Shown here one piece after another: positions 4,369 through 36,687 of a DNA stretch of 37,269 nucleotides. The notes beneath the pieces are model-generated. The model did no database searches. It had not been told where the DNA came from and saw nothing but the letters and a program-made list of their open reading frames with translations. A program made the position numbers and the translations under genes. Each line of letters starts with the position of its first letter. The first letter of the stretch is position 1. Source of the DNA: Nitrosomonadales bacterium (GTDB lineage: Bacteria; Pseudomonadota; Gammaproteobacteria; Burkholderiales; Gallionellaceae); the NCBI GenBank assembly GCA_023259015.1, contig JAHFRC010000001.1, positions 1 to 37,269 on the forward strand, in the 5' to 3' direction.

Positions 4369-4431
4369 CCATTTCCGCAAAAGTGCAAATTGCCGTATGC
4401 GGACAAGAGATGGTGGTGGATTTATTTCCAT
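4369..4431 (-). pseudogene. Decayed 5' end remnant of a further TMTC-like/TPR gene copy
   Basis: Reading MEINPPPSLVRIRQFALL resembles MNPRPSPAHMRQFAPMAL and MNPEKTNPTPSRARMRQYAPIAL starts of intact copies; lies directly after the stop of the 4445..6346 copy. Confidence 0.6.
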
Positions 4432-4444
4432 TGGGTTTCTTGCA

Positions 4445-6346
4445 TTATTTTTCGTTGGTTGTGCGGCCGGGGCAACTGGCTTCGGCGCGTGCCGCTTCTT
4501 CAAGCCGCCCTGCCTGTTTGTACACATCCGCGAGCAGGCAATGCGCCCGCAAGTCGGGTATCCATTGATCCAATGCGGCGCGTAGCGGAGCTTCCGCTTC
4601 GGCAGCGTGCCCGTCTAACAGCAAGGCGAGCCCCAGGTTCTTGAAGGCTGTGCCACGCATGGATTCCGGAAGGCGTTGCGACTCTGCTGCTGCACGTAAA
4701 TTGGCCGTTGCTTTTGCATAAACATCTAAATTCAATAACGTCAATCCAGCGTTGTAACGTACTGACGCATTATCAGGAAATTGTTTCGCCAGGTAATCCC
4801 ATTGCGCCGCAAAAATATCCCTGCAACGTTCCCAGAAATTCCTTGCGGGCGAATTCCATTTGCTTTGGACAGGCCAATTTTTAAGGCTAGACCACAAGTT
4901 CCAGAGCAGAGCCATTGCTTTTTGGGGATCACCTGTATCTACGGCATCGACATGCACGGTATGGTAAGCCTTGATCAACTGGAGCATGGTATCCCGGAAT
5001 TCGGGGATTGTTATGCTGTTGGCCGTTTCATTTGCATCTTGGTACGAGTTTTTTGGCAGTTGGTGCTCAATGATTTTAATTGCAGCAGGTAAATAATATC
5101 CAGGATAGGCGCGCAAATCGTTATTTAGCAGCGCTTCTTCGCTTCGCCAGTCGCGTGGCCGTTCAAAGGTCTGGAAGCCCCATGACAAAGCGATGACGAG
5201 CAACACGGCAGCACGTGGCGCAGGGTTTAAACGCCAAGACAGGGCGACAAGCAAAAGCACGGCCGGCCATGCCGCAAGCGCAAGGAAACGGTCGGAAACA
5301 AGTGAAGGCGCCCCATAGGGGATCAGTTGCAAATGAGGGATGGAGAACAGAAAAAAAACTATCAGGGCAAAACTTTCGATCGACCGCTTGCGCAGGAGCA
5401 ATACCGTGCCGGCGGCGACCGCCGCCAGAACTGTTGCCCCGAGGACGGCCATGGCGGGAAGATGTGGGTCCTCAAACACCGGGTAATTAAAATGGCGGCT
5501 CTCCGGGCTGACGGCAAGGCGAGCCAGCCAGCCCAGCACGGCCAATGTCCGGGTGATCGTCTCCATGCCAAAATAAGCAGGCTCTTTTCCGATGCTGCTG
5601 GCAATAAAAAAACGAACCAGCAACCATGCCAGGAGCAATATGGTTAAAGGCCACAGCAACTGGGAACGGCGCCTGTGTGACACCGGGGTGTCGAGCCAGA
5701 AGAATATCCAGAGCATGGCGATGACTGGCGACACGGCAACATAGGATGCCTTCGACAGCATCATCGCCACAAAAGCTGCCAGCGTTGCGGCGGCATATGG
5801 CGCGGAGAGTCCCTGTTCCCGCCGGGCGCGCATGGCAAGCCACAGCGCAAGCAGCGAGAATAGATTGGGAAGCATATACTTGCGCCCGCTGATCCATACC
5901 ACAGGCTCGACCAGGGTGGGGTGCAACGCAAACAAGGAGGTGATTGCCGCCGCCGCCCATGGCGCGCTTGCGGCATCTGCCGGACGGAAGTAGCGCCATA
6001 ACTCCAGCGTTGCGGCATAAGCCAGCGGCAGGCTAAGCAGGTACAGCAGGGTGTTGTGCAGCCGGAACGCAGACGGGTTGAGGCCGAACAGCGTCATGTC
6101 GAACCAGTAGGAAAGATCACGCAACGGGAGGAATTCGGAGAAAGGGTTGTATGGTTCGGTAAGCAGGCGCCAAAGCTCAGCCAAATGCAACCCTGCCAGT
6201 TTGGTGTTGTCGGCGAGATAAACTGTATCGTCAGAAACAAACGGGTAACTAATCGCCTGCAGGTAAGAGGCGGCCGCTATCGCAGCGCTGAGAAGCACAA
6301 GCGCCAAGGGTGCAAGTTGCGGCATGCGTGGATGGAGTGGGAGCAT
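4445..6346 (-). CDS. TMTC-like multi-pass membrane protein with C-terminal TPRs (putative polyprenol-linked glycosyltransferase)
   Basis: YPFVSDDTVYL acidic motif after TM1, HPTLVEPVVWISGRKYMLPNLFSLLALWLA, C-terminal TPRs; paralogous to four other genes in the window. Confidence 0.75.
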   Translation of the reverse strand: MLPLHPRMPQLAPLALVLLSAAIAAASYLQAISYPFVSDDTVYLADNTKLAGLHLAELWRLLTEPYNPFSEFLPLRDLSYWFDMTLFGLNPSAFRLHNTLLYLLSLPLAYAATLELWRYFRPADAASAPWAAAAITSLFALHPTLVEPVVWISGRKYMLPNLFSLLALWLAMRARREQGLSAPYAAATLAAFVAMMLSKASYVAVSPVIAMLWIFFWLDTPVSHRRRSQLLWPLTILLLAWLLVRFFIASSIGKEPAYFGMETITRTLAVLGWLARLAVSPESRHFNYPVFEDPHLPAMAVLGATVLAAVAAGTVLLLRKRSIESFALIVFFLFSIPHLQLIPYGAPSLVSDRFLALAAWPAVLLLVALSWRLNPAPRAAVLLVIALSWGFQTFERPRDWRSEEALLNNDLRAYPGYYLPAAIKIIEHQLPKNSYQDANETANSITIPEFRDTMLQLIKAYHTVHVDAVDTGDPQKAMALLWNLWSSLKNWPVQSKWNSPARNFWERCRDIFAAQWDYLAKQFPDNASVRYNAGLTLLNLDVYAKATANLRAAAESQRLPESMRGTAFKNLGLALLLDGHAAEAEAPLRAALDQWIPDLRAHCLLADVYKQAGRLEEAARAEASCPGRTTNEK

Positions 6347-10061: not shown

Positions 10062-11987
10062 TTACCGCGATATTTCATCATTGGTTACGCGGCCGGGGCA
10101 ACTGGCTTGGGCGCGTGCCGCTTCCTCAGGCCGCTTTGTCTGCTTGTACACTTCCGCCAGCAGGCAATGCGCCCGCAGGTCAGGTATTCTTTGCTCCAAT
10201 GCGGCACGTAGCGGAGCTTCCGCTTCGGCAACGTTCCCGTTACGCAGCAGGGCAAAGCCGAGGTTTTTGAAGGCTGCTCCACGCATGGATTCCGGCAGGC
10301 GTTGCGATTCGGCTGCGACACGTAAATGGGCTACTGCATCCTTGTAATTATAGAGATCCAACAGCCACAAGCCGGCGTTGTAGCGCACCGGTGCATTGTC
10401 AGGAAATTGCCTGGAAAGATCATCCCATTGCGCCGCAAAAACATCCCTGCAATGCCCCCAGAAATTTTCCACGGGCAAGTTCCATTTGCTTTGAGCAGGC
10501 CATTGCCTGAGGGAAAAGCCCAATTTTCGGAGCAGCGCCATTGCCTCCCGGGGATCGCCGGAAGTTGCAGCATCGACATGCACGGCATGTTCTGTCTCGA
10601 TCAACTCGATCAGGATATTGCGGAATTCCGGGATGGTTACGCTGCTGGCCGTCTCGTTTGCTTCGCGATATAACCCTTGCGGCAACTGGACAGTGATGAT
10701 CTTGTACAAGGCAGGCATATAGTAGCCTGGGTAAGCGCGCAGGTCGGCATCGGCGAGCGCATCGAAACTGCGCCAGTCGCGCGGACGTTCGGCGTTCTGG
10801 AAGCACCATGACAAAGCGATGACGAGCAACACGGCGATGCGTGGCGCGGGTTTTAAGCGCCATGACAGGGCGACCAGCAACAATGCGGCAGGCCATACTG
10901 CGAGAAACACAAAACGGTCTGAAACAAGTGAGGGCGGCATGTACGGGACCAGTTGCAGGGAGGGTGCACAGAGCAGCAAAAAAGCGATGCCGGCAAAACC
11001 CTCCAGCGAGCGTTTGCGCAGGAACATTATCGCCCCAGCCGTTACCGCTGCCAGAACCGCCGCCCCGAGGGCGACCATGACATAAAAGTACGGGTCTTCG
11101 AACACCGGATAAAAGAAATGGCGGCTTTCCGGGCTGACGGCAAGACGGGCCAGCCACCCCAGAATGGCTAATGTGCGGGTGACTGTCTCGACCCCGAAAT
11201 AGATCGGAACCTTTTGCGTATTGATCGTCGCGAAAACAAGGGCTATGCACGCTGCCAGCAACAGGCTGGACAGGGGCAACAGCAGCAATGAGCGGCGCCT
11301 GCGAGGCGCCGGAATACCGTACCAGAAGGCCAGCCAAAGCATGGCAATGACCGGCGCCACCGCAACTGCGGTTGCCTTCGACAGCATTGCCGCCAGCAGC
11401 GCAACCAGTGCGGCGGCGGAGTACGCTATGGAAATCCCCCCTTCCCGAATTGCCCTCACGGCAAGCCACAGCGCCAGCAGCGAGAACAGGGCTGAAAGCA
11501 CGTCCTTGCGGCCGGCGACCCACACCACCGCTTCGGCGTGCGAGGGGTGCAGCGCAAACAAGGCGGCAACTGCCGCTGCAGCCCATGGCGCACTGGCGGC
11601 ATCCGCCGGGCGGAAATAGCGCCACAAACCTGACGTCGTGGCATACACCAGCGGCAGGCACAGCAGATACAGGATGATGTTGTGCAGCCGGAATGCGGCG
11701 GGGTTCAGGCCGAACAGCTTCATGTCGAGCCAGTAGGAAAGGTCACGCAACGGAAGGAACTCAAAAACAGAATTGTATGGCTCGTTAAAGAGACGCCATA
11801 GCTCGGTTAGGTGCAGCCCCGCCAGCTTGGTATTTTCGGTGAGGTAAATTGCATCGTCAGAAATAAACGGGTAGTCAAGCGCCCGCAGGTAGGCGGCAAC
11901 GGCCGCCACAGCACCGGCCAATATCAGCGCCAGAGGCGCCAGCCGCCGCATACTGGCGCGTAATGGGGACGAGTTATTTTGTTTCAT
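10062..11987 (-). CDS. TMTC-like multi-pass membrane protein with C-terminal TPRs
   Basis: YPFISDDAIYL, HPSHAEAVVWVAGRKDVLSALFSLLALWLAVRA, C-terminal TPRs; 4-bp ATGA overlap with 11984..13915. Confidence 0.77.
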   Translation of the reverse strand: MKQNNSSPLRASMRRLAPLALILAGAVAAVAAYLRALDYPFISDDAIYLTENTKLAGLHLTELWRLFNEPYNSVFEFLPLRDLSYWLDMKLFGLNPAAFRLHNIILYLLCLPLVYATTSGLWRYFRPADAASAPWAAAAVAALFALHPSHAEAVVWVAGRKDVLSALFSLLALWLAVRAIREGGISIAYSAAALVALLAAMLSKATAVAVAPVIAMLWLAFWYGIPAPRRRRSLLLLPLSSLLLAACIALVFATINTQKVPIYFGVETVTRTLAILGWLARLAVSPESRHFFYPVFEDPYFYVMVALGAAVLAAVTAGAIMFLRKRSLEGFAGIAFLLLCAPSLQLVPYMPPSLVSDRFVFLAVWPAALLLVALSWRLKPAPRIAVLLVIALSWCFQNAERPRDWRSFDALADADLRAYPGYYMPALYKIITVQLPQGLYREANETASSVTIPEFRNILIELIETEHAVHVDAATSGDPREAMALLRKLGFSLRQWPAQSKWNLPVENFWGHCRDVFAAQWDDLSRQFPDNAPVRYNAGLWLLDLYNYKDAVAHLRVAAESQRLPESMRGAAFKNLGFALLRNGNVAEAEAPLRAALEQRIPDLRAHCLLAEVYKQTKRPEEAARAQASCPGRVTNDEISR

Positions 11988-13915
11988 TGCGCTGTTTTCT
12001 CATTGGGTGTACGGCCAGGGCAGCTGGCTTCGGCACGTGCCGTTTCTTCAAACCGCTTAGCCTGCTTATACACTCTGGAGAGCAGGCAATAAGCCCACAA
12101 ATCTGGCGTCTGCTGTTCCAGGGCGGCACGCAGTGGAACCTCTGCTTCGGCAACATGCCCACTGAGTAACAAGGCGAGACCGAGATTATAGAAGGCTGTT
12201 CCACGCAAGGTTTCAGGCAGGTGTTGCGACCCGGTTGCGGCGCGTAAATGCATTGCGGCATCTGCATAAAAATTGAAATTTATCAGCGATAGCCCTGCGT
12301 TGTATCGCACCGATGCATTATCGGGAAAATGCTTAACCAGGGAATTCCACTCATATACAAAATTATCTTTGCAAAGTTCCATGGAGAGAACTATGGGCGA
12401 ATTCCATCTGGCTTGAGCAATAGGCTGCTTCAAGGCAAGCCGCAGTTTTTCCAGCAGCGCCATTGCTTCGTTTGGATTGCCCGTTGCAACGGCATCGACA
12501 CTCACGGCATGGTCAGCCTCAACCAATTTGACCGCGATATCCCGAAACTCGGGAGTTGTTATGCTGTTGGCCGTATCCATTGCGTCGCGATGCAATCCCT
12601 GCGGCAATTGGATGGCAACGATTTTGAATACGGCAGACATGTAGTGTCCGGGAAAGGCGCGCAAGTCGGCATCTATTACCGCTTCAAGACTGCGCCAGTC
12701 ACGCGGCTTTTCCATGGTTTGGAAGCCCCATGGCAGTGCAATGGCGAGCAGCAGCGCGATGCGGGGCGCGGGTTGCAAGCGCCAGGACAGGGCGACAAGC
12801 AACAATACCGCCGGCCATGCCGCGATAGCCAGATAACGATCTGCAACAAGCGTGGGCGACCCATAGGGGATCAGTTGCAAGTAGGGTACGCAGAGCAGCA
12901 AAAAAGCAGCCAGGGCAAACCACACCAGCGACCGTTTGCGCAGGAACATCACCCCGCCAGTCACCGTCGCTGCCAGTGACGCCACCCCCAGTGCGGCCAT
13001 TGCGGTAAAGTGTGGATCCTCGAATACCGGATAAAATGAATGGCGGCCTTCCGGGCTGAAGGCAAGGCGGGTCAGCCACCCCAGCACGGCCAGTGTTCGG
13101 GTGGCCATCTCAATCCCGAAATAACCCTGCTCTTTCCCGATGCTGGTCGCAACAAAAATACGGAGCATGAGTCCTGCCAGAAGCAAAATGGCGAGGGGCC
13201 ACAACAACAGGGAGCGGCGCCTGTCCGGCGCCGGGATGTCGAGCCAGAAGGCCATCCAGAGCATGGCAATGACTGGCGCCACGGCAACATAGGATGCTTT
13301 CGATAACATCACCGCCGCAAATGCCGCCAGGGCTGCGGCGGCATGGGGCGCGGAAAGCCCGTGATTCCGCCTGGCGCGCACGGCAAGCCACAGCGCAAGC
13401 ATCGAAAACAGATTGGGCAGCACATACTTGCGCCCGCTGACCGCAACCACGGGCTCGATCAGGGCGGGATGCAGCGCAAATAATGCGGTGACCACCGCCG
13501 CCACCCATGGCGCGCTGGCGGCGTCCACCGAACGGAAATAGCGCCATAACTCCGACGTCGTGGCATAAACCAGCGGCAGGCAGAACAGGTACAGCAGGAT
13601 GTTGTGCGCCCGGAACGCGGCTGGGTTCAGGCCGAACAGTTTGAGGTCAAGCCAGTAGGAAAGATCACGCAGGGGGAGGAATTCGGAAAAACCATTGTAT
13701 GGCTCGGTAAAGAGGCGCCATAGTTCTGTCAGGTGCAGCCCTGACAGTTTGGGATTATTGGTGAGGTAAATCGTATCGTCAGAAATAAATGGGTAGTCGA
13801 GCGCTTGCAAGTAGGCGGCCGCCGCCGCCATAGCACAGGCCAATACCAGCGCCATGGGTGCAAATTGCCGCATGTGGGCAGGAGAGGGGCGCGGGTTCAT
13901 TTCCTCCGGGTTCAC
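11984..13915 (-). CDS. TMTC-like multi-pass membrane protein with C-terminal TPRs
   Basis: GTG start; YPFISDDTIYL, HPALIEPVVAVSGRKYVLPNLFS; tandem with 10062..11987. Confidence 0.77.
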   Translation of the reverse strand: MNPEEMNPRPSPAHMRQFAPMALVLACAMAAAAAYLQALDYPFISDDTIYLTNNPKLSGLHLTELWRLFTEPYNGFSEFLPLRDLSYWLDLKLFGLNPAAFRAHNILLYLFCLPLVYATTSELWRYFRSVDAASAPWVAAVVTALFALHPALIEPVVAVSGRKYVLPNLFSMLALWLAVRARRNHGLSAPHAAAALAAFAAVMLSKASYVAVAPVIAMLWMAFWLDIPAPDRRRSLLLWPLAILLLAGLMLRIFVATSIGKEQGYFGIEMATRTLAVLGWLTRLAFSPEGRHSFYPVFEDPHFTAMAALGVASLAATVTGGVMFLRKRSLVWFALAAFLLLCVPYLQLIPYGSPTLVADRYLAIAAWPAVLLLVALSWRLQPAPRIALLLAIALPWGFQTMEKPRDWRSLEAVIDADLRAFPGHYMSAVFKIVAIQLPQGLHRDAMDTANSITTPEFRDIAVKLVEADHAVSVDAVATGNPNEAMALLEKLRLALKQPIAQARWNSPIVLSMELCKDNFVYEWNSLVKHFPDNASVRYNAGLSLINFNFYADAAMHLRAATGSQHLPETLRGTAFYNLGLALLLSGHVAEAEVPLRAALEQQTPDLWAYCLLSRVYKQAKRFEETARAEASCPGRTPNEKTAQ

Positions 13916-13962
13916 TGCGCTGTTCTTTCATCGCGTGCGTTGCCAGAATGGTTGGCTCCAGT
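13912..13962 (-). pseudogene. Decayed 3' end remnant of a further TMTC-like/TPR gene copy
   Basis: Reading GANHSGNARDERTAQ* aligns to ASCPGRTPNEKTAQ*; TGA overlaps the GTG start of 11984..13915 as in the intact tandem pair. Confidence 0.5.
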
Positions 13963-14365
13963 GCACGATACTTCATCAATCATTGATTGGTTTTTCCACT
14001 GATATTTCAGGAAGAGCTATTCGCGTTATTTTCATATGGCCAAGTTTGCCCTTATGGTTTTTGTGGTTGTAAAACCTGATAGATGGCGGCATATATCAGG
14101 CCATGGCATATTCGCCATAGCATATTCGATGAGCAGATAGTATCCCTAGTCCACCAACCCTGGCAAAAACTTGTTGCATTCTTGTTGCATTCATGCCCTG
14201 ATATCCATACCTGCGGCGGGTTGCAATAGCCAACTGTGACATGATCAACGTATAATTGCATTGCATAAGTATCCGGTTCTGCCGGGGGATTCGCCCAACG
14301 AAATTCGCCAAAGTTTGACCTGTGCGGCGGGCTTGTTCCGGAATGTTGTTTGGAGCTGTTGCATA

Positions 14366-21224: not shown

Positions 21225-23108
21225 TTAATCCAGTTGCAGTGCCGAATGTTCAGAAGCAACCAGATATTTGCCGAAAGCATCAATCATTGCTGAGGGTTGT
21301 AAATGAAACTGATCGATATGCCACTCCCCGTTGGCGATGCCATCGCCTCGATCAGTAAGTGCAAATACGTCAAGAAAATCCAAGCCTGCAACCAAGGCAT
21401 TTTCTTTGAGAATTGCATTAAAAAGCCTTATTAGCTTTACAAGCTGATCTGCCGTTTCTGTATCCAACGTATGCAATCGAACAATATTGACTGCGGGTAT
21501 GCCGCCAACTATCACTCGATGCCCAAATTTGGCTGCAACTCTGGCCACGTAAGAAATGTACGAAGTTACTGTAGCTCTTGCTATATCTTCCATAGTCATT
21601 TCCGGTGATTTCTTCCATGCCTTGATAACACCTTCGTCGTGGCGACAGTCAATTTCACCGATGAGCAGCAAGATTTCAGAAGCGTGTGGAAGTGTTTCCA
21701 CGATGTTCTGGAATTGGGATTTGAACCTGTTCTGACTATTATTGCCAAGATGCCATTGTTTGCACCCCACAATCAATTCCGCAGAGCATTTCATTTCTCG
21801 ATCACGGTAGGAAACCAGTGCACCATGGGCAGACAGGCAGTGGCTGTCGCCGATAACATATAGCTGGCCAGCACCTTTTTCTTGATGTTTTTTATCGTTA
21901 TCTTCTTGTTTTTTCGACAAAAGAAAACCCATATAATTCCAGTAAGCACGAGCATTTTGTTGTTCGAAACCGGAGGTTGCATTTATTGGTTGTGAAATAT
22001 CCAGCATGCGTCTGCTTTGCCCGATATTTTCATTCAAGTAATATAGTACCGTCAAAGATACGGCTGCATTTACCCCCTCGCCATGCGGGTCGATGGTCAA
22101 AACTTTTTGAAAAATGGAGATAGCCTGATCAGTATTGCCTAAGTAACGATGTATGTTGCCAAAATTATTATATTCCTTAGCGTAATCCGGTTTGATCTCC
22201 AGTGCCTGTCGATAGCAGGCTTCTGCTTCATTCAGCCGGCCAAGTTTCAGTAATATGCGGCCGAGACTGATGTGAGCTTCGAAGAAATCTGGTTTTATAT
22301 CCAGCGCACGTCGGCACAAGGATTCTGCTTCGGACAATTTTCCTAGTTTTAAGAGCATGCTTCCCAGGTTATCGTATGCTTCGGCAATATCTGGATTGAT
22401 CTGCAATGCTTGCCGGTGGCTGGCTTCTGCCTCATCCAGCCGGCCCAGTTCATGAAGAGTGATGCCAAGGTTGCAGTGTGCCTGGGCAAAGTCGGGTTTG
22501 ATTTGCAGGGCACGCCGGTAGCTGGCTTCTGCCTCGTTTAGCCTGCCAAGTCCCTTGAGGGTGTTGCCCAGGTTGTAATGCGTTTCAGCGATACCGGGTT
22601 TGATTTGCAGCGCCCGCCGGTAACTTGCCTCGGCCTCATCCAGCCGACCAAGGTCGCCGAGGGTGATGCCCAGGTTGCTGAGCACATTGGCGTTATGCGG
22701 ATCGATCTGTAATGCCCGCCGATAACTTGCCTCGGCTTCATCCAACCGTCCCAGGTCGCCGAGGACATTGCCCAGATTGCTATGTACATCGGCATCATCA
22801 GGCAAGAATTTTGCTGCATTCTGCAAGGCAGCCAGGCCATCCTTGCCCTGCATTTGAAGGGATGCGCCCAATAAATTCCAGACAAATCCGGATTCCGGAT
22901 ATTTCTCAAGCAGCAGGTGCGCTTGGCTTTCCAACTCTGCAAGGCGTCCGGCATTAAACAAGGCTTCAAGCTGATCGCATTCGACGGCGGTGGGCGCCGC
23001 TTTCTTCCAGGCAACTTTGGGCTTGGCGGATTCGTACCACTCCAGGCAGCATTTTTCAAATGTCTTTCCGCTGCCGCAGGGGCACGGGGCATTTCTTTCC
23101 GGTTTCAT
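21225..23108 (-). CDS. SEC-C zinc motif + TPR array + C-terminal SGNH-hydrolase-like domain
   Basis: MKPERNAPCPCGSGKTFEKCC; about eight TPRs; YVIGDSHCLSAHG, LLLIGEIDCRH, WHIDQFHLQPSAM. Confidence 0.8.
   Translation of the reverse strand: MKPERNAPCPCGSGKTFEKCCLEWYESAKPKVAWKKAAPTAVECDQLEALFNAGRLAELESQAHLLLEKYPESGFVWNLLGASLQMQGKDGLAALQNAAKFLPDDADVHSNLGNVLGDLGRLDEAEASYRRALQIDPHNANVLSNLGITLGDLGRLDEAEASYRRALQIKPGIAETHYNLGNTLKGLGRLNEAEASYRRALQIKPDFAQAHCNLGITLHELGRLDEAEASHRQALQINPDIAEAYDNLGSMLLKLGKLSEAESLCRRALDIKPDFFEAHISLGRILLKLGRLNEAEACYRQALEIKPDYAKEYNNFGNIHRYLGNTDQAISIFQKVLTIDPHGEGVNAAVSLTVLYYLNENIGQSRRMLDISQPINATSGFEQQNARAYWNYMGFLLSKKQEDNDKKHQEKGAGQLYVIGDSHCLSAHGALVSYRDREMKCSAELIVGCKQWHLGNNSQNRFKSQFQNIVETLPHASEILLLIGEIDCRHDEGVIKAWKKSPEMTMEDIARATVTSYISYVARVAAKFGHRVIVGGIPAVNIVRLHTLDTETADQLVKLIRLFNAILKENALVAGLDFLDVFALTDRGDGIANGEWHIDQFHLQPSAMIDAFGKYLVASEHSALQLD
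22190..22800 (-). repeat. 102-bp tandem repeats encoding near-identical 34-aa TPR units
   Basis: Repeated LGRLDEAEASYRRALQIKPxxAxxHxNLGxxLxx units, also similar at DNA level. Confidence 0.85.
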
Positions 23109-29158: not shown

Positions 29159-31090
29159 TCACCGAGCAGTTTCCTTATTGGATGCGCGATTAGGGCAACT
29201 TGCTTCGGCGCGCGCCGCTTCCTCCGGCCGCCCTGTCTGTTTGTACACATCCGCGAGCAGACAATGCGCCCGCAAGTCGGGTATCCGCTGCTCTAATGCG
29301 GCACGTAGCGGGGCTTCCGCTTCAGCAACTTGCTCGCTGTTTATCAAGGCAAGACCAAGGCTATAGAAAGCAGTCCCGCGCACGGATTCCGGAAGCTGTT
29401 GCGACTCGGTTGCGGCGCGCAAATGAGCTGCTGCGTTCTTGTGTCTAAGTGTATCCACCATCCACAATCCGGCGTTGTAGCGTACTGGTGCATCGTCCGG
29501 AAATTGTTCGGCCAAACGCCTCCATTGCCAGGTAAGCAATATGTTTTTACAGTAATACCAGGCGTAGCTCATGGACGCATTCCATTCGACCTGGACAGGC
29601 GGTTGCTTAAGGGTGAGCCCCAAATTTTGCAGGAGAGTCACCGTTTCATGTGGATTGGCAGTTGTCGCGTCTTTGGTGCGCATGGATGCCCGCGTTATCC
29701 CGCTCATGATGTCGCGTAACACGGGGACGGTTATGCTGTTGGCTGTCTCACTTGCTTCGTGGAATAATGAATGCCTTAATTGAATCTCCATAATATACAT
29801 AGCAGGCAAATAGTATCCTGGGTAGGTGCGTAAATCGGCGCTCATCAGCGCTCCGAAACTGCTCCAGTCGCGTGTCCTCTCAGCGGTTTGAAAACCCCAA
29901 GGCAACGCAATGGCAAGCAGCAACACTATGCGTGATACTGGTCTTAAGCGCCAGCAAAGGGCAACAAGCAACAGCACGGCAGGCCATACCGCAAGGGCCA
30001 GATAACGGTCTGCAACGAGCGAGGGTGCTCCATGCGGGAGCAGTTGTATATAGGGTATGCATAGCAGTAAAAATGCAGCCAGGGCGAATCCCTCCAGCGA
30101 CCGTTTGCGCAGGAGCATTATCCCGCCGGCCAATGTTGCTGCCAGAACCACCGCCCCCAGTGCGGCCATTGCGGGCAGGCGCGGATCCTCAAATACCGGG
30201 TAAAAGAAATGGCGGCCTTCCGGGCTGACAGCAAGACGGGCCAGCCAGCCCAGCACGGCCAATGTTCGAGTGACCGCCTCTACTCCAAAGTAAAATGGAA
30301 ACCCGTCAAAACCTTTGTTATGGACGATAAAAATAAGGGTCAACAATCCCGCCAGAAATAATATGGCGAGGGGCCACAGCAGCAGGGAGCGGCGTCTGTG
30401 CGGCGCCGGGATGTCGAGCCAGAAGACCACCCAGAGCATGGCAATGACTGGCGCCACGGCAACATAGGATGATTTCGACAGCATGACTGCTCCAAATGCC
30501 GCCAAAGCTGCGGCGGCATGCGGCGCAGAAAGGCCATGTTCCCGCCGCGAGCGCACAGTGAACCACAGCGCAAGCATCGAGAACAGGTTGGGCAGCACGT
30601 ACTTGCGTCCGCTGACCCACACCACGGATTCGACCAGCGCCGGATGCAGCGCAAACAAGGCGGCAACCGCCGCCGCCGCCCATGGCGCACTGGCGGCGTC
30701 CGTCGGGCGGAAATAGCGCCATAATTCAGCCGTGGTTGCATATACCAAGGGCAGGCAAAGCAGATGCAACAGGATGTTTTGTGTCCGGGAAGCTGCTGGA
30801 GTTGAGCCGAAAAGCTTTATGTCGAGCCAGTAAGAGAAATCACGCAGTGGAAGAAATTCAAAACAGCAATTATATGGCTCGATAAAGAGGCGCCATAATT
30901 CGCTCAGGTGCAGTTCCAGCAGCTTTTTATTTTCGGGGATATAGCTTATGTCGTCAGAAATGAACGGGTAGTCAAGTGCTTGCAAGTAAGCGGCAACTGC
31001 CATTGCCGCAGCAGCCAATATCAGCGCTATGGGAGCATATTGCCGCATCCGTGCGCGGGATGGGGTAGGGTTCGTTTTTTCCGGGTTCAT
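29159..31090 (-). CDS. TMTC-like multi-pass membrane protein with C-terminal TPRs
   Basis: YPFISDDISYI, HPALVESVVWVSGRKYVLPNLFS, C-terminal TPRs. Confidence 0.76.
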   Translation of the reverse strand: MNPEKTNPTPSRARMRQYAPIALILAAAAMAVAAYLQALDYPFISDDISYIPENKKLLELHLSELWRLFIEPYNCCFEFLPLRDFSYWLDIKLFGSTPAASRTQNILLHLLCLPLVYATTAELWRYFRPTDAASAPWAAAAVAALFALHPALVESVVWVSGRKYVLPNLFSMLALWFTVRSRREHGLSAPHAAAALAAFGAVMLSKSSYVAVAPVIAMLWVVFWLDIPAPHRRRSLLLWPLAILFLAGLLTLIFIVHNKGFDGFPFYFGVEAVTRTLAVLGWLARLAVSPEGRHFFYPVFEDPRLPAMAALGAVVLAATLAGGIMLLRKRSLEGFALAAFLLLCIPYIQLLPHGAPSLVADRYLALAVWPAVLLLVALCWRLRPVSRIVLLLAIALPWGFQTAERTRDWSSFGALMSADLRTYPGYYLPAMYIMEIQLRHSLFHEASETANSITVPVLRDIMSGITRASMRTKDATTANPHETVTLLQNLGLTLKQPPVQVEWNASMSYAWYYCKNILLTWQWRRLAEQFPDDAPVRYNAGLWMVDTLRHKNAAAHLRAATESQQLPESVRGTAFYSLGLALINSEQVAEAEAPLRAALEQRIPDLRAHCLLADVYKQTGRPEEAARAEASCPNRASNKETAR

Positions 31091-31187
31091 TGCGCTGCTT
31101 CTTCATTAGCAACGCGAACGGGGCAACTGGCTTCGGCACGTGCAGCTTCCTCGAACTGTTTAGTTTGTCTATACACTTCAGCCAATA
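31087..31187 (-). pseudogene. 3' end remnant of a further TMTC-like/TPR gene copy
   Basis: Reading ILAEVYRQTKQFEEAARAEASCPVRVANEEAAQ* matches the C-termini of intact copies; its TGA overlaps the ATG of 29159..31090. Confidence 0.85.
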
Positions 31188-33268
31188 TCATTTACATAGA
31201 GGTGATCCGGCAAAAGGGCATCTTGATGTCTTTGCCACATCTGGGTGTAGGCATCCTCGATATGCCCTGTGATCAGTGCAGTATTGAACAATGAGTGCGT
31301 GATTCGATTTTTTTCCAGCTTCTGTCTGATCAAGGCGAGTTTCCCAGGGTTTGTTGCAAGTTCCAGTGCAAGGGTTTTATATTCTCCATGGGAACGCGTT
31401 ATCAGTTCGGACAGCCCTATTGAGTTGAGCAGGCTTGCCGCAACCCTGCCCGCAAACGTATCGCCAAGGCAGGTGAGCAGGGGTAGTCCAACCCTCAAGG
31501 CATCGCTTGCCGTAGTGGCGGCATTATAGAAAAATGTGTCGAGGAATAAATCCGCCAGTCGATGGCGCGCCAGATGATCTGGCAGGGCCATTCTTTTTGC
31601 AAATACAATCCGTTCCGGGGAAATGCCACGACTACTTGCTTCGTTTCGCAGGTTCCGCTCCGTCTGCGCGTTGCTTTCGAGCAGCCATAAAATGCTTCCC
31701 TCAACCTGCTTGAGCAGTTGCATCCAGATATCAAAAACGGTTGGGGTGATTTTGTGGCAGCTGTTAAAGCAACAAAAAACGAATCCTGTTTCGGGCAGCC
31801 CCACTTTGCTGCGGGTAATCTTGTGTTTCGAAATATGTTTGTTGGAATCGTTGGCCTGGAAGGAGTTTGGTAAATAGACCACTTTCTCATTATAGAAAAC
31901 ACGGCTGCTCTCCGGGATGACAAGCCGGTCAGCCATGATGTAATCCATGTAGCCCGCTCCCATCGTCCCTGTGTATCCCAGATAGTTTACCTGCACCGGC
32001 GCAGGGCGCAGGGCAAAAATACCGGTGCGTGAGCCGGATGTATGGCCGTTAAGATCCACGGCAATATCTATTTCCAAATCGCGCATCAGTTCTGCTATTT
32101 GTGCGGTCTTCATCTGGCTGGCATCTACAAACTTGTCGAATGCCTTGACTATGCGTTTTCGCAACTGGCTTTGGTCGTCAAGGCAAAGCGAGATGGCAAT
32201 GGTCTCAAACCGTGATTTATCATGTTGCTCAAACACCCCTGCTATCAGTTCCCCAACCGGGTGCTCGCGAAAATCTGCTGAAACATAAGCCAGCCTTATT
32301 TTGTTGTGCGAGTGCCTGTGGCTGGTTTTTGTATCGGGCGCAGCTTCAGGGTATAGTTTCCGAACATATATTTCAGCGCACCGTTTTTGCTGCGCCGGTG
32401 TGGAGGGGATCGCCAGCAGGAAGAAAGGACTGGATACTTCCTTTCCAGCTTCAACCCCGGCCAATAATTCATGAAAGTCGTTTTCAATTCCTTCCCAATC
32501 GCAACAATGCATTTTGCTATCCAGATACGAGCCAACTGCGAAAATATAATCAGGTTTTATCGATAATAATTTCTTGAAACAGGCGGCAGCTTCTTCATGC
32601 AGCGATGCTTCGAATAAGGCGCCGGCAAGGTTCTGGTATGTGTCAGCATGATCCGGCATGGACATCAATACTTTTTTAAAGCAGGTGGCCGCCTCCTTGT
32701 ACCGTTTTGCTTCGGCGAGGACTATGCCAAGGTTGTTATGCGCTTCAGTGAAATCAGGCTTGATCTGGATCGCCTGCCGGAAGCACGCCTCGGCTTCACC
32801 CAGCCTGCCCAAGCCCTTGAGGGTGATGCCCAGGTTGTTATGTGCGTTGGCGCTCTGCCGATTTAATTGCAGCCCTCGCCGGTGGCAGGCCTCGGCCTCT
32901 TCCAGCCTGCCAAGGTCGTAAAGGGCATTACCCAAGTTGCCATGCGCATCAGCGTCAAGGGGAGAAAATTTGGCTGCATTTTTTAATGCAGGCAGGCCAT
33001 CCTTGCCTTGCATTCGAAGCGACACACCCAATAAATTCCAGACGAGCCCTGAATCGGGGTATCGTTCGAGCATTAAATGCGCCAGATTCCCTAGTTCCAT
33101 GAGTTGCCCAGCGTTAAACAGGGTAATCAACTGGTGGCATTCGGCTGCGGGTGGCGCCGCTTTTTTAGCGGAAGGCTTTGACTTGGCGGACTCATACCAT
33201 TCCTGGCAGCATCTTTCGAATATTTCTCCGCTGCCGCAGGGGCATGGATCGTTACTTCCTGGTTTCAT
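31178..33268 (-). CDS. SEC-C motif + TPR + GT41 (OGT/SPINDLY-like) glycosyltransferase
   Basis: MKPGSNDPCPCGSGEIFERCC; TPRs; IRLAYVSADFREHPVGELIAGVFEQHD, DIAVDLNGHTSGSRTGIFALRPAPVQVNYLGYTGTMGAGYMDYIMADR. Confidence 0.92.
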   Translation of the reverse strand: MKPGSNDPCPCGSGEIFERCCQEWYESAKSKPSAKKAAPPAAECHQLITLFNAGQLMELGNLAHLMLERYPDSGLVWNLLGVSLRMQGKDGLPALKNAAKFSPLDADAHGNLGNALYDLGRLEEAEACHRRGLQLNRQSANAHNNLGITLKGLGRLGEAEACFRQAIQIKPDFTEAHNNLGIVLAEAKRYKEAATCFKKVLMSMPDHADTYQNLAGALFEASLHEEAAACFKKLLSIKPDYIFAVGSYLDSKMHCCDWEGIENDFHELLAGVEAGKEVSSPFFLLAIPSTPAQQKRCAEIYVRKLYPEAAPDTKTSHRHSHNKIRLAYVSADFREHPVGELIAGVFEQHDKSRFETIAISLCLDDQSQLRKRIVKAFDKFVDASQMKTAQIAELMRDLEIDIAVDLNGHTSGSRTGIFALRPAPVQVNYLGYTGTMGAGYMDYIMADRLVIPESSRVFYNEKVVYLPNSFQANDSNKHISKHKITRSKVGLPETGFVFCCFNSCHKITPTVFDIWMQLLKQVEGSILWLLESNAQTERNLRNEASSRGISPERIVFAKRMALPDHLARHRLADLFLDTFFYNAATTASDALRVGLPLLTCLGDTFAGRVAASLLNSIGLSELITRSHGEYKTLALELATNPGKLALIRQKLEKNRITHSLFNTALITGHIEDAYTQMWQRHQDALLPDHLYVNDIG

Positions 33269-33367
33269 GCTTGTCTTTTTTAAACGGTTATCAGGAACTG
33301 CAAATGAACAAGGGTAACCGCAAAGCAGTCGTCCTGATTTGAAACAATTATTGCATCAAATATTGCT

Positions 33368-34445
33368 TTCCGCCAGAAACATATTGCACTCCCATGAGGA
33401 GTGAGGAAGGCAGATGCAACAACTGGAATTGGGGTCTGGAATTGGGGTTAAGGAGTAAAAGGGCTGCAGAGGATAAAGCGGTATGCTGCCCGGATGGAGA
33501 TGATTACCGAAGAGGCCGCCAGACGGCTGGAAGCGCTCAAGTTCTGGGACAAGCATGGACTGGGAGCGGCATTGGACTTTTACAGGGTTTCACGGCGCAT
33601 CCTGTTCAACTGGAAGCGCCAGTACCGTGAGTCCGACGGCAATGCGGGGAGCCTGAATGCTCAAAGCCGAGCGCCGAAGCGACGTCGCACACGACAAAGG
33701 CCTGCTGCCGTATTGAACCGTTTGGGGGAGTTGAGGAAGCGCCATCCCGGTTTGGGGGCAGAAAAGCTGCAATTATTCTTGGCCGACTGGTGCGAGCCAC
33801 GCAACCTTTCAGCGCCGTCTGTGCGCACTGTCATTCGCTTGGTTGCCGAACGACCGGAGTTCAAAAAGGCCAAACCATCCAAGGCCAGGACAAACCGCCG
33901 CAAAGCGGCGCATGATCGCAAGCCCAAAGGGTTCAAGGCTGCGCACCCGGGGCAGTGTGTGGGCGTAGACACCATCGAGATACAGCGCGATGGACTCAAG
34001 AGCTACATCAGCCCTTCACCGATATTCACAGCCGCTTTGCCTTGGCGGTAGCCTCGACCTCCAAGAGCAGCAAGCGCGCCACCATCCTGTGGCGGCTTTC
34101 CAAGGCCTGTTTCCCCTACCCGATTGAGCGGGTGTTGTCGGACAACGGCAGCGAGTTCAAGTTGGCTTTCGACGCCTAGGTGGTCAAAGGTGGCTCGGGC
34201 CGCTGGTTAACCTACCCCGGGATACTCAAGATGAACGCGCACGTCGAGCGCTTCAACGGCAGCCTGCAGCAGGAATTCGTTGCCTACCACGAGGACTTGC
34301 TGTTCACGGACATCGACCTGTTCAACGATAAACTGTTCGATTACCTGGTTTGGTTTAACTCCGAGCGACCGCATTATGGCCTCGAGTTAAAATCCCCCTG
34401 CGAGTTTTTGAGAGACAACCATCAGTGCAATATGTATTGGCGGAA
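33368..34445 (+). mobile_element. Degenerate IS481/IS3-like insertion sequence with imperfect terminal inverted repeats
   Basis: TTCCGCCAGAAACATATTGCAC (33368..33389) inverted to GTGCAATATGTATTGGCGGAA (34425..34445), about one indel and one mismatch apart; encloses transposase remnants. Confidence 0.7.
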
Positions 34446-34476
34446 GACAAAGCCTAGCTGGGGGCAGGTCAAATGA
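33494..34476 (+). pseudogene. IS481-like DDE (rve) transposase, frameshifted and with in-frame stop
   Basis: MEMITEEAARRLEALKFWDKHGLGAALDFYRVSRRILFNWKRQYRE; frameshift near 34010..34020; VLSDNGSEFKLAFDA then TAG at 34177..34179; MNAHVERFNGSLQQEFV continues. Confidence 0.85.
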
Positions 34477-34522: not shown

Positions 34523-35545
34523 TTAGTTAGGTAGCGGATGAAAAGCCTTGGCAATATAAGCGATGATTGCGGTAATTTCCCTATCGTTGAGGACGGACTT
34601 CCATGCCGGCATTGAGGTATCCGGTAGGCCTTCGCGTATTGTTGCAGACAGACGGGTTCGGGTCATGGTGCCCATGAAGAGGGGGTCGCGCAGGTTTCGC
34701 GGATGAGGCTCGAGAAAGCTGCCGATCCAGTTTTTGCCGGTGCCATCGGCGGCATGGCAGAAGGCGCAATTGTTTTGCCAGAGCTTCTGGCCTTTGCGTT
34801 CTAACTGAGTCATGCCCGTGAGTTGTAGCGGCCTGTCATGCAACAGGTAAGGGCTGGCGCTGGACATTGCATCAACGGTAGCAGTATAGGAGTAGTTATT
34901 GCGCGGATAGGATAGCGGATAAGCTTCCCAAGTGATGCCGGTGCTACTGTTGCCTGTGGAATTAGCAGGGCCGCCGCCGCGATCATGGCAGACAACGCAA
35001 CTGGATAGGAATAGGCGCTTGCCGCGAGCCTGCTCCAGGCTTAACTTTTCCCACGGGTAACTGACGGAGATTTCACCCGTGGCAAATGGAAACGCCGCTT
35101 GGTAGCGTTGGTGATCCGGCCAGCCGTTCTCTGGGGTATGGTAGTGCGTGTTGATAGCCTTGCGGTGTACAAATTCATCCATCACAAATGCGGCAACCTG
35201 CGCCATTTCCGTGTCGTTCAGCACGTTACGGAAAGAATTCATCGCTGTTCCAGGTTTGCCGTTACGCAATATCGAGGCGATATGTTCCTGGGTAAACTGC
35301 GCAGTCTTGGGGCCGGTAAAATCAATGGGCGGCGGCCTGAGGAAGCTGGCGGCTACCGTTTGCGCGTTACCGGAATAGCCATGGCAGAAATAACACCGGA
35401 AATTATAGATTTTCCGGCCGGCTTCAAGTTGCGCCGAAGTTGGAACAGGGTGAAGCGCGTCGGTGCTTGAGGCAGCCACCATTTTGCCGTAATGGGCGGT
35501 GGCTGCGAAAGCCAAGAGGCCTGTTGCCAAAATCCGCCATTTCAC
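34523..35545 (-). CDS. Tri-haem c-type cytochrome
   Basis: CYFCH, CVVCH, CAFCH motifs; GTG start overlapping the upstream stop (GTGA) is more likely than the 35644 ORF start; hydrophobic leader VKWRILATGLLAFAATA. Confidence 0.88.
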   Translation of the reverse strand: MKWRILATGLLAFAATAHYGKMVAASSTDALHPVPTSAQLEAGRKIYNFRCYFCHGYSGNAQTVAASFLRPPPIDFTGPKTAQFTQEHIASILRNGKPGTAMNSFRNVLNDTEMAQVAAFVMDEFVHRKAINTHYHTPENGWPDHQRYQAAFPFATGEISVSYPWEKLSLEQARGKRLFLSSCVVCHDRGGGPANSTGNSSTGITWEAYPLSYPRNNYSYTATVDAMSSASPYLLHDRPLQLTGMTQLERKGQKLWQNNCAFCHAADGTGKNWIGSFLEPHPRNLRDPLFMGTMTRTRLSATIREGLPDTSMPAWKSVLNDREITAIIAYIAKAFHPLPN

Positions 35546-36687
35546 TTGGTGCTTGCTTTCGCCCCGAGATTTGGCTGAATGAAGGTCTGGAAGACGAATT
35601 CTGTGATGTTGGCAATTTCCTGTTCGGTAAGCACCTTGCCCCATGCCGGCATTTCGGTTCCAGGGCGCCCATCGGATACAGAAAGAAAAATTCTCGGGCG
35701 ATTAAGCGTGACACGCGAGTAGTCATCCTTGAAATTGCGCACCTTGGGGTTTATGAAGTAGGCTCGCGGCCCTTGCGCATCCCCCTCAATGCCATGGCAG
35801 GTAGCACAATTTGCCATGAAAAATTGTTTGCCGAGCTGTGCATTGCCTTTAAGTTTTTTGGGCAGCGGCAAACTCATATCGGATTCAGTTGGCGCAGTTG
35901 GTAGCTGGCTGGCGGGAGTTTTGGCGCCGGGTGTAGCTTGGGCGATGGCCGGAACCTGTTTGTCGGAAGGGGATTTGGGGAGACTGGGTATCATTACAAG
36001 GCGGATATAGTCCACCACGGCCCCGATATTTTCTGCGGTTATCCTGTCGGCAAAACCGGCCTTGACCGAGCCATGACGTCCTTTGGTGACAGAAGCGATC
36101 ATGCGTTCGCGGGTGAGGGTTGTCTGGTTCTTGGGTACCGTCAGGTCGGGTGGTGTGCCAGTCATTTCGTCGGATTGCACGCCTTGGCCACGGTCACCAT
36201 GGCAAACCTGGCAAAAGTGGCCGTAAACACCACGGCCAAGGGCTATGCGTGGGTCAAGGGCTACCAGCATGAACCTGCCGCGGATGTAATCCACAACCGA
36301 AGAAATTTCATTTTCGCTAAACCTGGTTTTCCATGAAACCATGGCGGTGCCAGGCTTGCCATTTGTGACGACATTAATCATTTGTTCGCGGGTGAGATTG
36401 GCAGCCGCATTGAAATCGCGTGGTGGAGGAATCAGGTTTGTGTCAGCCCGGCTGTTGCCGGAACCACGGTCACCATGGCAAACCGAGCAATGTCTTTTAT
36501 ATAGGGCTTCAGCAGGTTCATCGCCCGTTCTTTGCGAACGGTAGCCGGGTGTGGCTTGGGCTGGAGAGAAACTGCCAATACACGCCAGGAGCAGGCCAAG
36601 CGCCAAAGTGATGCAGGCTCGCAGGACGCTGGTGTTGTTTGACATGGGGGTGTCTTTGCGCATCATATGGGATGTTTTCATTAACAT
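35542..36687 (-). CDS. Tri-haem c-type cytochrome (three tandem monohaem-type domains)
   Basis: CSVCH, CQVCH, CATCH motifs; leader RACITLALGLLLACIGSFSPAQA; GAAGGAAAACATG suggests start at 36687. Confidence 0.88.
   Translation of the reverse strand: MLMKTSHMMRKDTPMSNNTSVLRACITLALGLLLACIGSFSPAQATPGYRSQRTGDEPAEALYKRHCSVCHGDRGSGNSRADTNLIPPPRDFNAAANLTREQMINVVTNGKPGTAMVSWKTRFSENEISSVVDYIRGRFMLVALDPRIALGRGVYGHFCQVCHGDRGQGVQSDEMTGTPPDLTVPKNQTTLTRERMIASVTKGRHGSVKAGFADRITAENIGAVVDYIRLVMIPSLPKSPSDKQVPAIAQATPGAKTPASQLPTAPTESDMSLPLPKKLKGNAQLGKQFFMANCATCHGIEGDAQGPRAYFINPKVRNFKDDYSRVTLNRPRIFLSVSDGRPGTEMPAWGKVLTEQEIANITEFVFQTFIQPNLGAKASTK

Follow-up and report, generated by a model that had tools for sequence, protein, structure and literature searches.

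A tail remnant of a TMTC-like tandem gene copy carrying the stop codon of a GT41 gene in a Gallionellaceae genome

Between a gene of glycosyltransferase family GT41 and one copy of a TMTC-like membrane protein family, a genome of the Gallionellaceae carries about 100 bp that seem to belong to both neighbours, which raises the question of what once stood there and how the GT41 gene came to end within it. The stretch analysed, referred to as the window, comprises 37,269 nt of a metagenome-assembled genome (MAG; GCA_023259015.1; 1.79 Mb, 94 contigs, 73% complete). The TMTC-like copies named most often below are labelled by their lower coordinate: 4445 (4445..6346), 10062 (10062..11987), 11984 (11984..13915) and 29159 (29159..31090). 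Coordinates of the features are collected in Table 1.

The tail stub and the end of the GT41 gene

The minus-strand frame ending at 31087, between the GT41 open reading frame (ORF) and copy 29159, reads LAEVYRQTKQFEEAARAEASCPVRVANEEAAQ up to its stop codon. In a search of the window's own genome, its last 33 codons matched the 3' end of 10062 with 77% nucleotide identity (E 7e-12) and that of 11984 with 75% (E 2e-10), and the alignment thus bore out the first-pass annotation, which had read this segment as the C-terminus of the family. A DNA profile built from the intact tails retrieved the stub with E 4.8e-16 in 309 kb searched (match 31184..31088), and a protein profile did so with E 4.5e-12 in whole genomes. 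The local score of the stub was 94, compared to a maximum of 40 among dinucleotide shuffles. Chance similarity was ruled out by the shuffles, by 326 decoy segments and by the whole-genome searches. Upstream of the stub, no TMTC-like sequence was present at the locus; the rest of the lost copy, which will be referred to as X, is missing and its place is taken by the GT41 gene. It is thus well supported that the stub is a gene remnant of a TMTC-like tandem copy donating a stop codon to the GT41 gene. The first-pass annotation had counted it as the remnant of a sixth copy; the tail of a vanished copy it is, but since six copies survive intact in the genome, one of them, the sixth, on contig C70, the remnant represents the trace of a seventh.

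The point of joining can be located closely. TMTC homology begins at TTGGCTGAAG (31185), which places the join at about 31186/31185. The minus strand from 31190 to 31087 starts with ATG ATA TTG GCT GAA GTG TAT and ends with GCG CAA TGA (translation MILAEVYRQTKQFEEAARAEASCPVRVANEEAAQ), and the first two of these codons (ATG ATA) are not TMTC-derived. Read in the other frame, the TMTC-derived bases make up the TGA of the GT41 gene together with the final Gly codon and some bases of the Ile codon that precedes it, in agreement with the earlier claim that the GT41 end (VNDIG and stop) lies inside the remnant.

Whether the GT41 gene lost anything at this join was judged from its homologues. Its product ends in PDHLYVNDIG, and the proteins of relatives mostly stop a few residues past a conserved xHIxV motif (e.g., PPEHIYVPA, PPEHIFIKN and PDHIAVTA). 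Because the homologues end 1-5 residues from the same point, the gene is essentially complete, and the exchanged part is limited to the natural stop with at most a few variable residues. Loss of genuine C-terminal GT41 residues was ruled out, as homologues end at the same place. Nor was the same gene end found in genomes lacking the TMTC-like family, which would have spoken against a borrowed stop: homologues elsewhere have different last codons. The GT41 gene itself looks chimeric, with a catalytic half nearest to other genera. As a separate observation, 31178-33268 and the gene at 21225-23108 (minus strand) have a common SEC-C/TPR N-terminal module (67%), of which the window genome carries many paralogues; their C-terminal domains are unrelated, GT41 in one and a different domain in the other.

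Examining the stub for decay under relaxed constraint revealed an open frame and a substitution pattern like that of intact tails. Third codon positions accounted for 57.5% of the differences between the stub and the intact tails and for 55% of those among the intact tails themselves, while a decayed stub on contig C70 gave 31% together with an in-frame TAG. Since the pattern is that of intact tails, either X was lost recently or constraint on the frame persists, two possibilities that 33 codons cannot separate.

Table 1. Features at the GT41/TMTC-like junction and related features of the window.
Feature	Position	Strand	Remarks
3' stub of lost TMTC-like copy X, final 33 codons and TGA	31087..31185	-	Nucleotide identity to 10062/11984 tails; profile match
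Mini-ORF, ATG to TGA, 34 codons	31087..31190	-	Overlaps GT41 end by 13 nt and 29159 start by 4 nt; candidate translation relay
GT41 gene (SEC-C motif, TPR, Glyco_transf_41), complete	31178..33268	-	Pfam PF13844, E 1.4e-88; end aligned with homologues
GT41 stop codon TGA	31178..31180	-	Within TMTC-derived bases, out of frame
TMTC-like copy next after the stub	29159..31090	-	ATG shares bases with stub TGA
Intact tandem pair 11984..13915 / 10062..11987	10062..13915	-	ATGA overlap; model for X / 29159
Cytochrome c gene	34523..35644	-	Collinearity with G003 stops here; TMTC-like copy comes next in G003
Insertion sequence (IS)	33363..34450	+ (transposase)	Terminal inverted repeats 33363-33390 / 34424-34450; rve-type transposase, frame-broken
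Head remnant of another lost copy	4371..4431	-	Directly after 4445..6346; local score 60, at most 34.5 in shuffles
Possible short tail trace, ending DERTAQ and stop	13916..13975	-	Before 11984..13915; anchored 36/60 identity, p 8e-8

The locus in same-genus genomes

To learn what stood at this place before, the locus was compared with a 99% complete same-genus genome (G003). Contig C42 of G003 is collinear over about 15 kb with the window from 34524 and the contig beyond (to C7:50000), and collinearity breaks off where the cytochrome c gene ends. Approximately 50-60 bp past this gene, G003 has the beginning of a TMTC-like copy; the same slot in the window is occupied by the IS, the GT41 gene, the stub and 29159. 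The head of the G003 copy was nearest to 10062 (80.6% nucleotide identity) and farthest from 29159 (72.1%) and is not orthologous to the latter, for which a probable G003 orthologue was found on another contig, C117 (75.6% compared to at most 71.5%). The tail preserved in the stub is also nearest to 10062. Furthermore, the GT41 catalytic domain was absent from all three same-genus genomes compared, as was the SEC-C/TPR N-terminal module at paralogue-level similarity. An adjacency of cytochrome and TMTC-like genes was looked for in the 1.5-kb flanks retrieved from 18 further genomes of the family and did not occur there.

A TMTC-like copy in the G003 slot combined with the absence of GT41 from the genus argues for replacement rather than for a deletion between old neighbours. 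X would once have occupied the place between the cytochrome gene and its tandem partner 29159, linked to the latter by an ATGA overlap, and the body of X would have been replaced in this lineage by an incoming GT41 gene with the IS beside it. The breakpoint would lie within the last 33 codons of X; the GT41 gene, joined just past the natural end of its catalytic domain, continues into the stub for about two codons and ends at the out-of-frame TGA. The stub itself would have been retained because the translation start region of 29159 also lies within it. We consider this the best explanation overall, with a probability of roughly 0.8; the replacement (in one or two steps), its recency and the retention for initiation are those parts of it that we infer. 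The IS, a single-copy element of about 1.09 kb, was ruled out as the direct cause of the join of GT41 and tail, as the GT41 gene lies between this element and the join.

Several findings weigh against this explanation. The contig of G003 covers no more than the first 387 bp of the copy and leaves its tail and the next gene unseen, so that the comparison with relatives proposed in the first-pass annotation yielded the start of a TMTC-like copy after the cytochrome gene rather than a whole one. The paralogues are old and partly mosaic, which makes the orthology calls weak, and the tree of the copies is star-like with low support and does not date the loss. Moreover, the junction of GT41, stub and 29159 is known from one genome only, a MAG with a single assembly.

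The first-pass annotation had proposed a plain deletion instead, in which the GT41 gene already lay upstream of X and one later event removed the 3' flank of GT41 together with the body of X. Such a deletion yields the same junction, and the 12-mer TGATATTGGCTG, which lies at the join (31190-31179, minus strand) and is found again within the head of 29159 (31034-31023), might be a trace of microhomology or might be due to chance (about 5% by our estimate). However, the G003 copy directly follows the cytochrome gene and GT41 is found in none of the three same-genus genomes, and a plain deletion needs a prior insertion of GT41 before X and thus one extra step. A two-step history of this kind, with GT41 inserted before X and a deletion following, is possible; deletion between long-standing neighbours we regard as doubtful, though not far-fetched. 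Hence, that the tail of a vanished copy carries the GT41 stop stands from the earlier account, whereas the deletion gives way to X having probably been replaced by an incoming GT41 gene.

The start of copy 29159 and a possible translation relay

The stop codon of the stub (TGA, 31089..31087) and the start codon of 29159 (ATG, 31090..31088) overlap as ATGA (31090..31087). The same 4-nt stop/start overlap was read in the intact tandem pair 11984/10062, as had been noted before. Family members of relatives begin with ATG AAY, located some ten bases past the upstream stop in tandem copies (in locus L083: TGA, 10 nt, ATG). The codon equivalent to this ancestral start is ACG in 29159, AAG in the C70 copy and AAT in 10062, which suggests that translation of these three begins at the ATG that shares bases with the TGA before it. 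As the start of 29159 shares bases with the stop of X, removal of the stub would take away the initiation region, and this would be the simplest reason for the survival of the stub.

In E. coli, translation of the last 15 nt of the upstream gene suffices for termination-reinitiation, which is abolished where the genes are separated by around 20 nt (PMC10666635). By this measure, the 87-nt gap between GT41 and 29159 should uncouple the latter unless the 34-codon frame of the mini-ORF is translated. No promoter- or terminator-like site was found between the two genes on their strand. A mini-ORF relaying translation from GT41 to 29159 might be imagined, but as it has no clear Shine-Dalgarno motif, we offer the relay only as a hypothesis.

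Taken further, the stub might be a maintained short gene whose translated ORF passes ribosomes from GT41 on to 29159, an idea that is compatible with the replacement of X. Its frame is open and lacks a decay signature, its ATG overlaps the end of GT41 and its stop forms the ATGA with the next gene, and under the reinitiation limits in E. coli (PMC10666635) 29159 would be left uncoupled without it. Recent loss accounts equally well for the intact frame, though, and with no clear Shine-Dalgarno motif, one single example and 33 codons being too few for a selection test, we consider a maintained gene unlikely.

Other remnants of the family and its relation to known systems

The stub is not the only debris of this family. 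Upstream of the C70 copy lies a decayed tail of about 170 bp with one in-frame TAG (L063:9962-9789, minus strand; 50 bits, E 2.5e-14). The head remnant directly after copy 4445 reads MEINPPPSLVRIRQFA and scored 12.6 bits compared to 4.9 for the best decoy, while the short tail trace before 11984 was not significant in unanchored tests. Tail remnants were also looked for before the copies at 6346 and 25863, and none were found. On contig C68 of G003 (L137:2477-2707), a tail pseudogene precedes a TMTC-like head, MDLPPTLARIRQVAP, whose frame continues without a break into an unrelated membrane protein; an unfused paralogue of the latter is located at L064:4295..5917. There the family head gives the membrane gene its start, and at 31178 the family tail gives the GT41 gene a stop. 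In a tandem copy of the Gallionella GL140_2 MAG (L089:3207-4976), an internal deletion took the last TPR helices with the frame kept (ending in GSGRVAENEKQAQ and stop). An orphan internal TMTC-like piece corresponding to residues 60-90 (E 9e-5) was observed on G003 contig C117 (L064:2400-2492, minus strand). Head and tail searches of other named Gallionella and Nitrosomonadales loci yielded tandem pairs (L083, L089) and nothing that was clearly an orphan stub. Judged by these sequences, the arrays of this Gallionellaceae family lose copies through within-gene breaks, the stubs supplying starts or stops to neighbours.

These remnants bear on two further explanations of the junction. According to the first, no copy was lost at this place and 29159 was duplicated or moved in together with the tail of a former upstream neighbour. 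A moved unit of a tail plus a whole copy would look identical, and the C70 copy shows the same arrangement. However, the best matches elsewhere reach at most 77% for the stub and at most 67% for 29159, by which a recent duplication is excluded, and the G003 slot already holds a copy, so we regard this origin as improbable. An assembly artefact fusing GT41 to a TMTC-like tail, conceivable in a MAG of 94 contigs with a repeated family, is very improbable, since no exact match longer than 12 bp spans the join in the window, C70 or the flanking stretches examined, from which no usual assembly k-mer could make the join, and since the stub is identical to no known copy and similar stubs occur at other places and in another assembly. 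It is also conceivable, though improbable, that ATGA-linked tandem copies act as landing slots in which newcomers replace the body and reuse the ends (the tail stop by GT41, the head start in G003 C68), with the tail stub staying translated as a relay ORF that couples the next copy.

Compared with known systems, the remnant of X is a clear and fairly ordinary case of gene replacement in a fast-changing surface-sugar region and not a new kind of system. The window carries surface-glycan genes (acyltransferases, GT2, a DegT-type sugar aminotransferase, WbqC and methyltransferases) as well as a sulfotransferase-like protein assigned by eye, and gene exchange is to be expected in such a setting. 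As in the prokaryotic gene remnants and truncated pseudogenes outlined in PMC522871 and PMC2374718, a short 3' piece of a family without its body lies beside an intact paralogue. Unlike those, the stub still has roles, as it terminates the upstream gene and provides the start of the one downstream, and its frame is undecayed. C-terminal displacement in Rhs genes (PMC2935791) likewise has a new coding segment displacing part of an old gene and leaving dissociated ends in the array; in the present case an unrelated gene with no shared core would have replaced the entire body of a tandem copy, and the orphan end lies before, not behind, the next copy. With ATGA termination-reinitiation pairs (PMC6728339, PMC10666635) the locus shares the 4-nt stop/start overlap of co-directed genes, whereas the upstream partner is a 34-codon stub and not a gene, and any coupling is putative.

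The locus offers a base-resolution view of a gene swap in a surface-glycan region, with a break inside the frame, a newcomer on a borrowed stop and a next gene that keeps its start because the stub was kept. Annotation pipelines would probably call the gap empty and the GT41 gene ordinary. Taken together, the stubs record how copies were gained and lost in a little-known family of membrane-plus-TPR proteins centred on the Gallionellaceae, and the mini-ORF relay, if true, would be a simple route for gene debris to gain function. We consider the locus of moderate interest for the repeated donation of heads and tails and for a relay that can be tested.

The TMTC-like label of the first-pass annotation held for the architecture and not as a match to a TMTC model: none of 22 members matched the TMTC Pfam domain (DUF1736) at E up to 1. 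The protein O-mannosyltransferases of the TMTC type, which belong to the GT-C/PMT clan (PMC7801869), have a multi-helix N-terminal membrane part, an acidic DD after the first helix and C-terminal TPRs, and the same features are seen here, the family in the window differing by the missing DUF1736 match and by having only a few C-terminal TPRs. The DD motif has been described as lining up with the GT-C transferase active site, and prokaryotic TMTC homologues have been noted as uncharacterised (PMC7801869). The label thus seems reasonable for the architecture, and TMTC membership is not claimed. In a structure model of a family member (pLDDT 82), helix 10-36 is the first membrane helix, and the pair D46/D47 following it is invariant in 22 of 22 sequences. 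TPR_16 was detected at the C-terminus of 20 of the 22 members, though below the curated cut-off in 29159, and TPR structures matched at profile positions 420-633. By name, the matches to the family came from Gallionella and other Nitrosomonadales MAGs.

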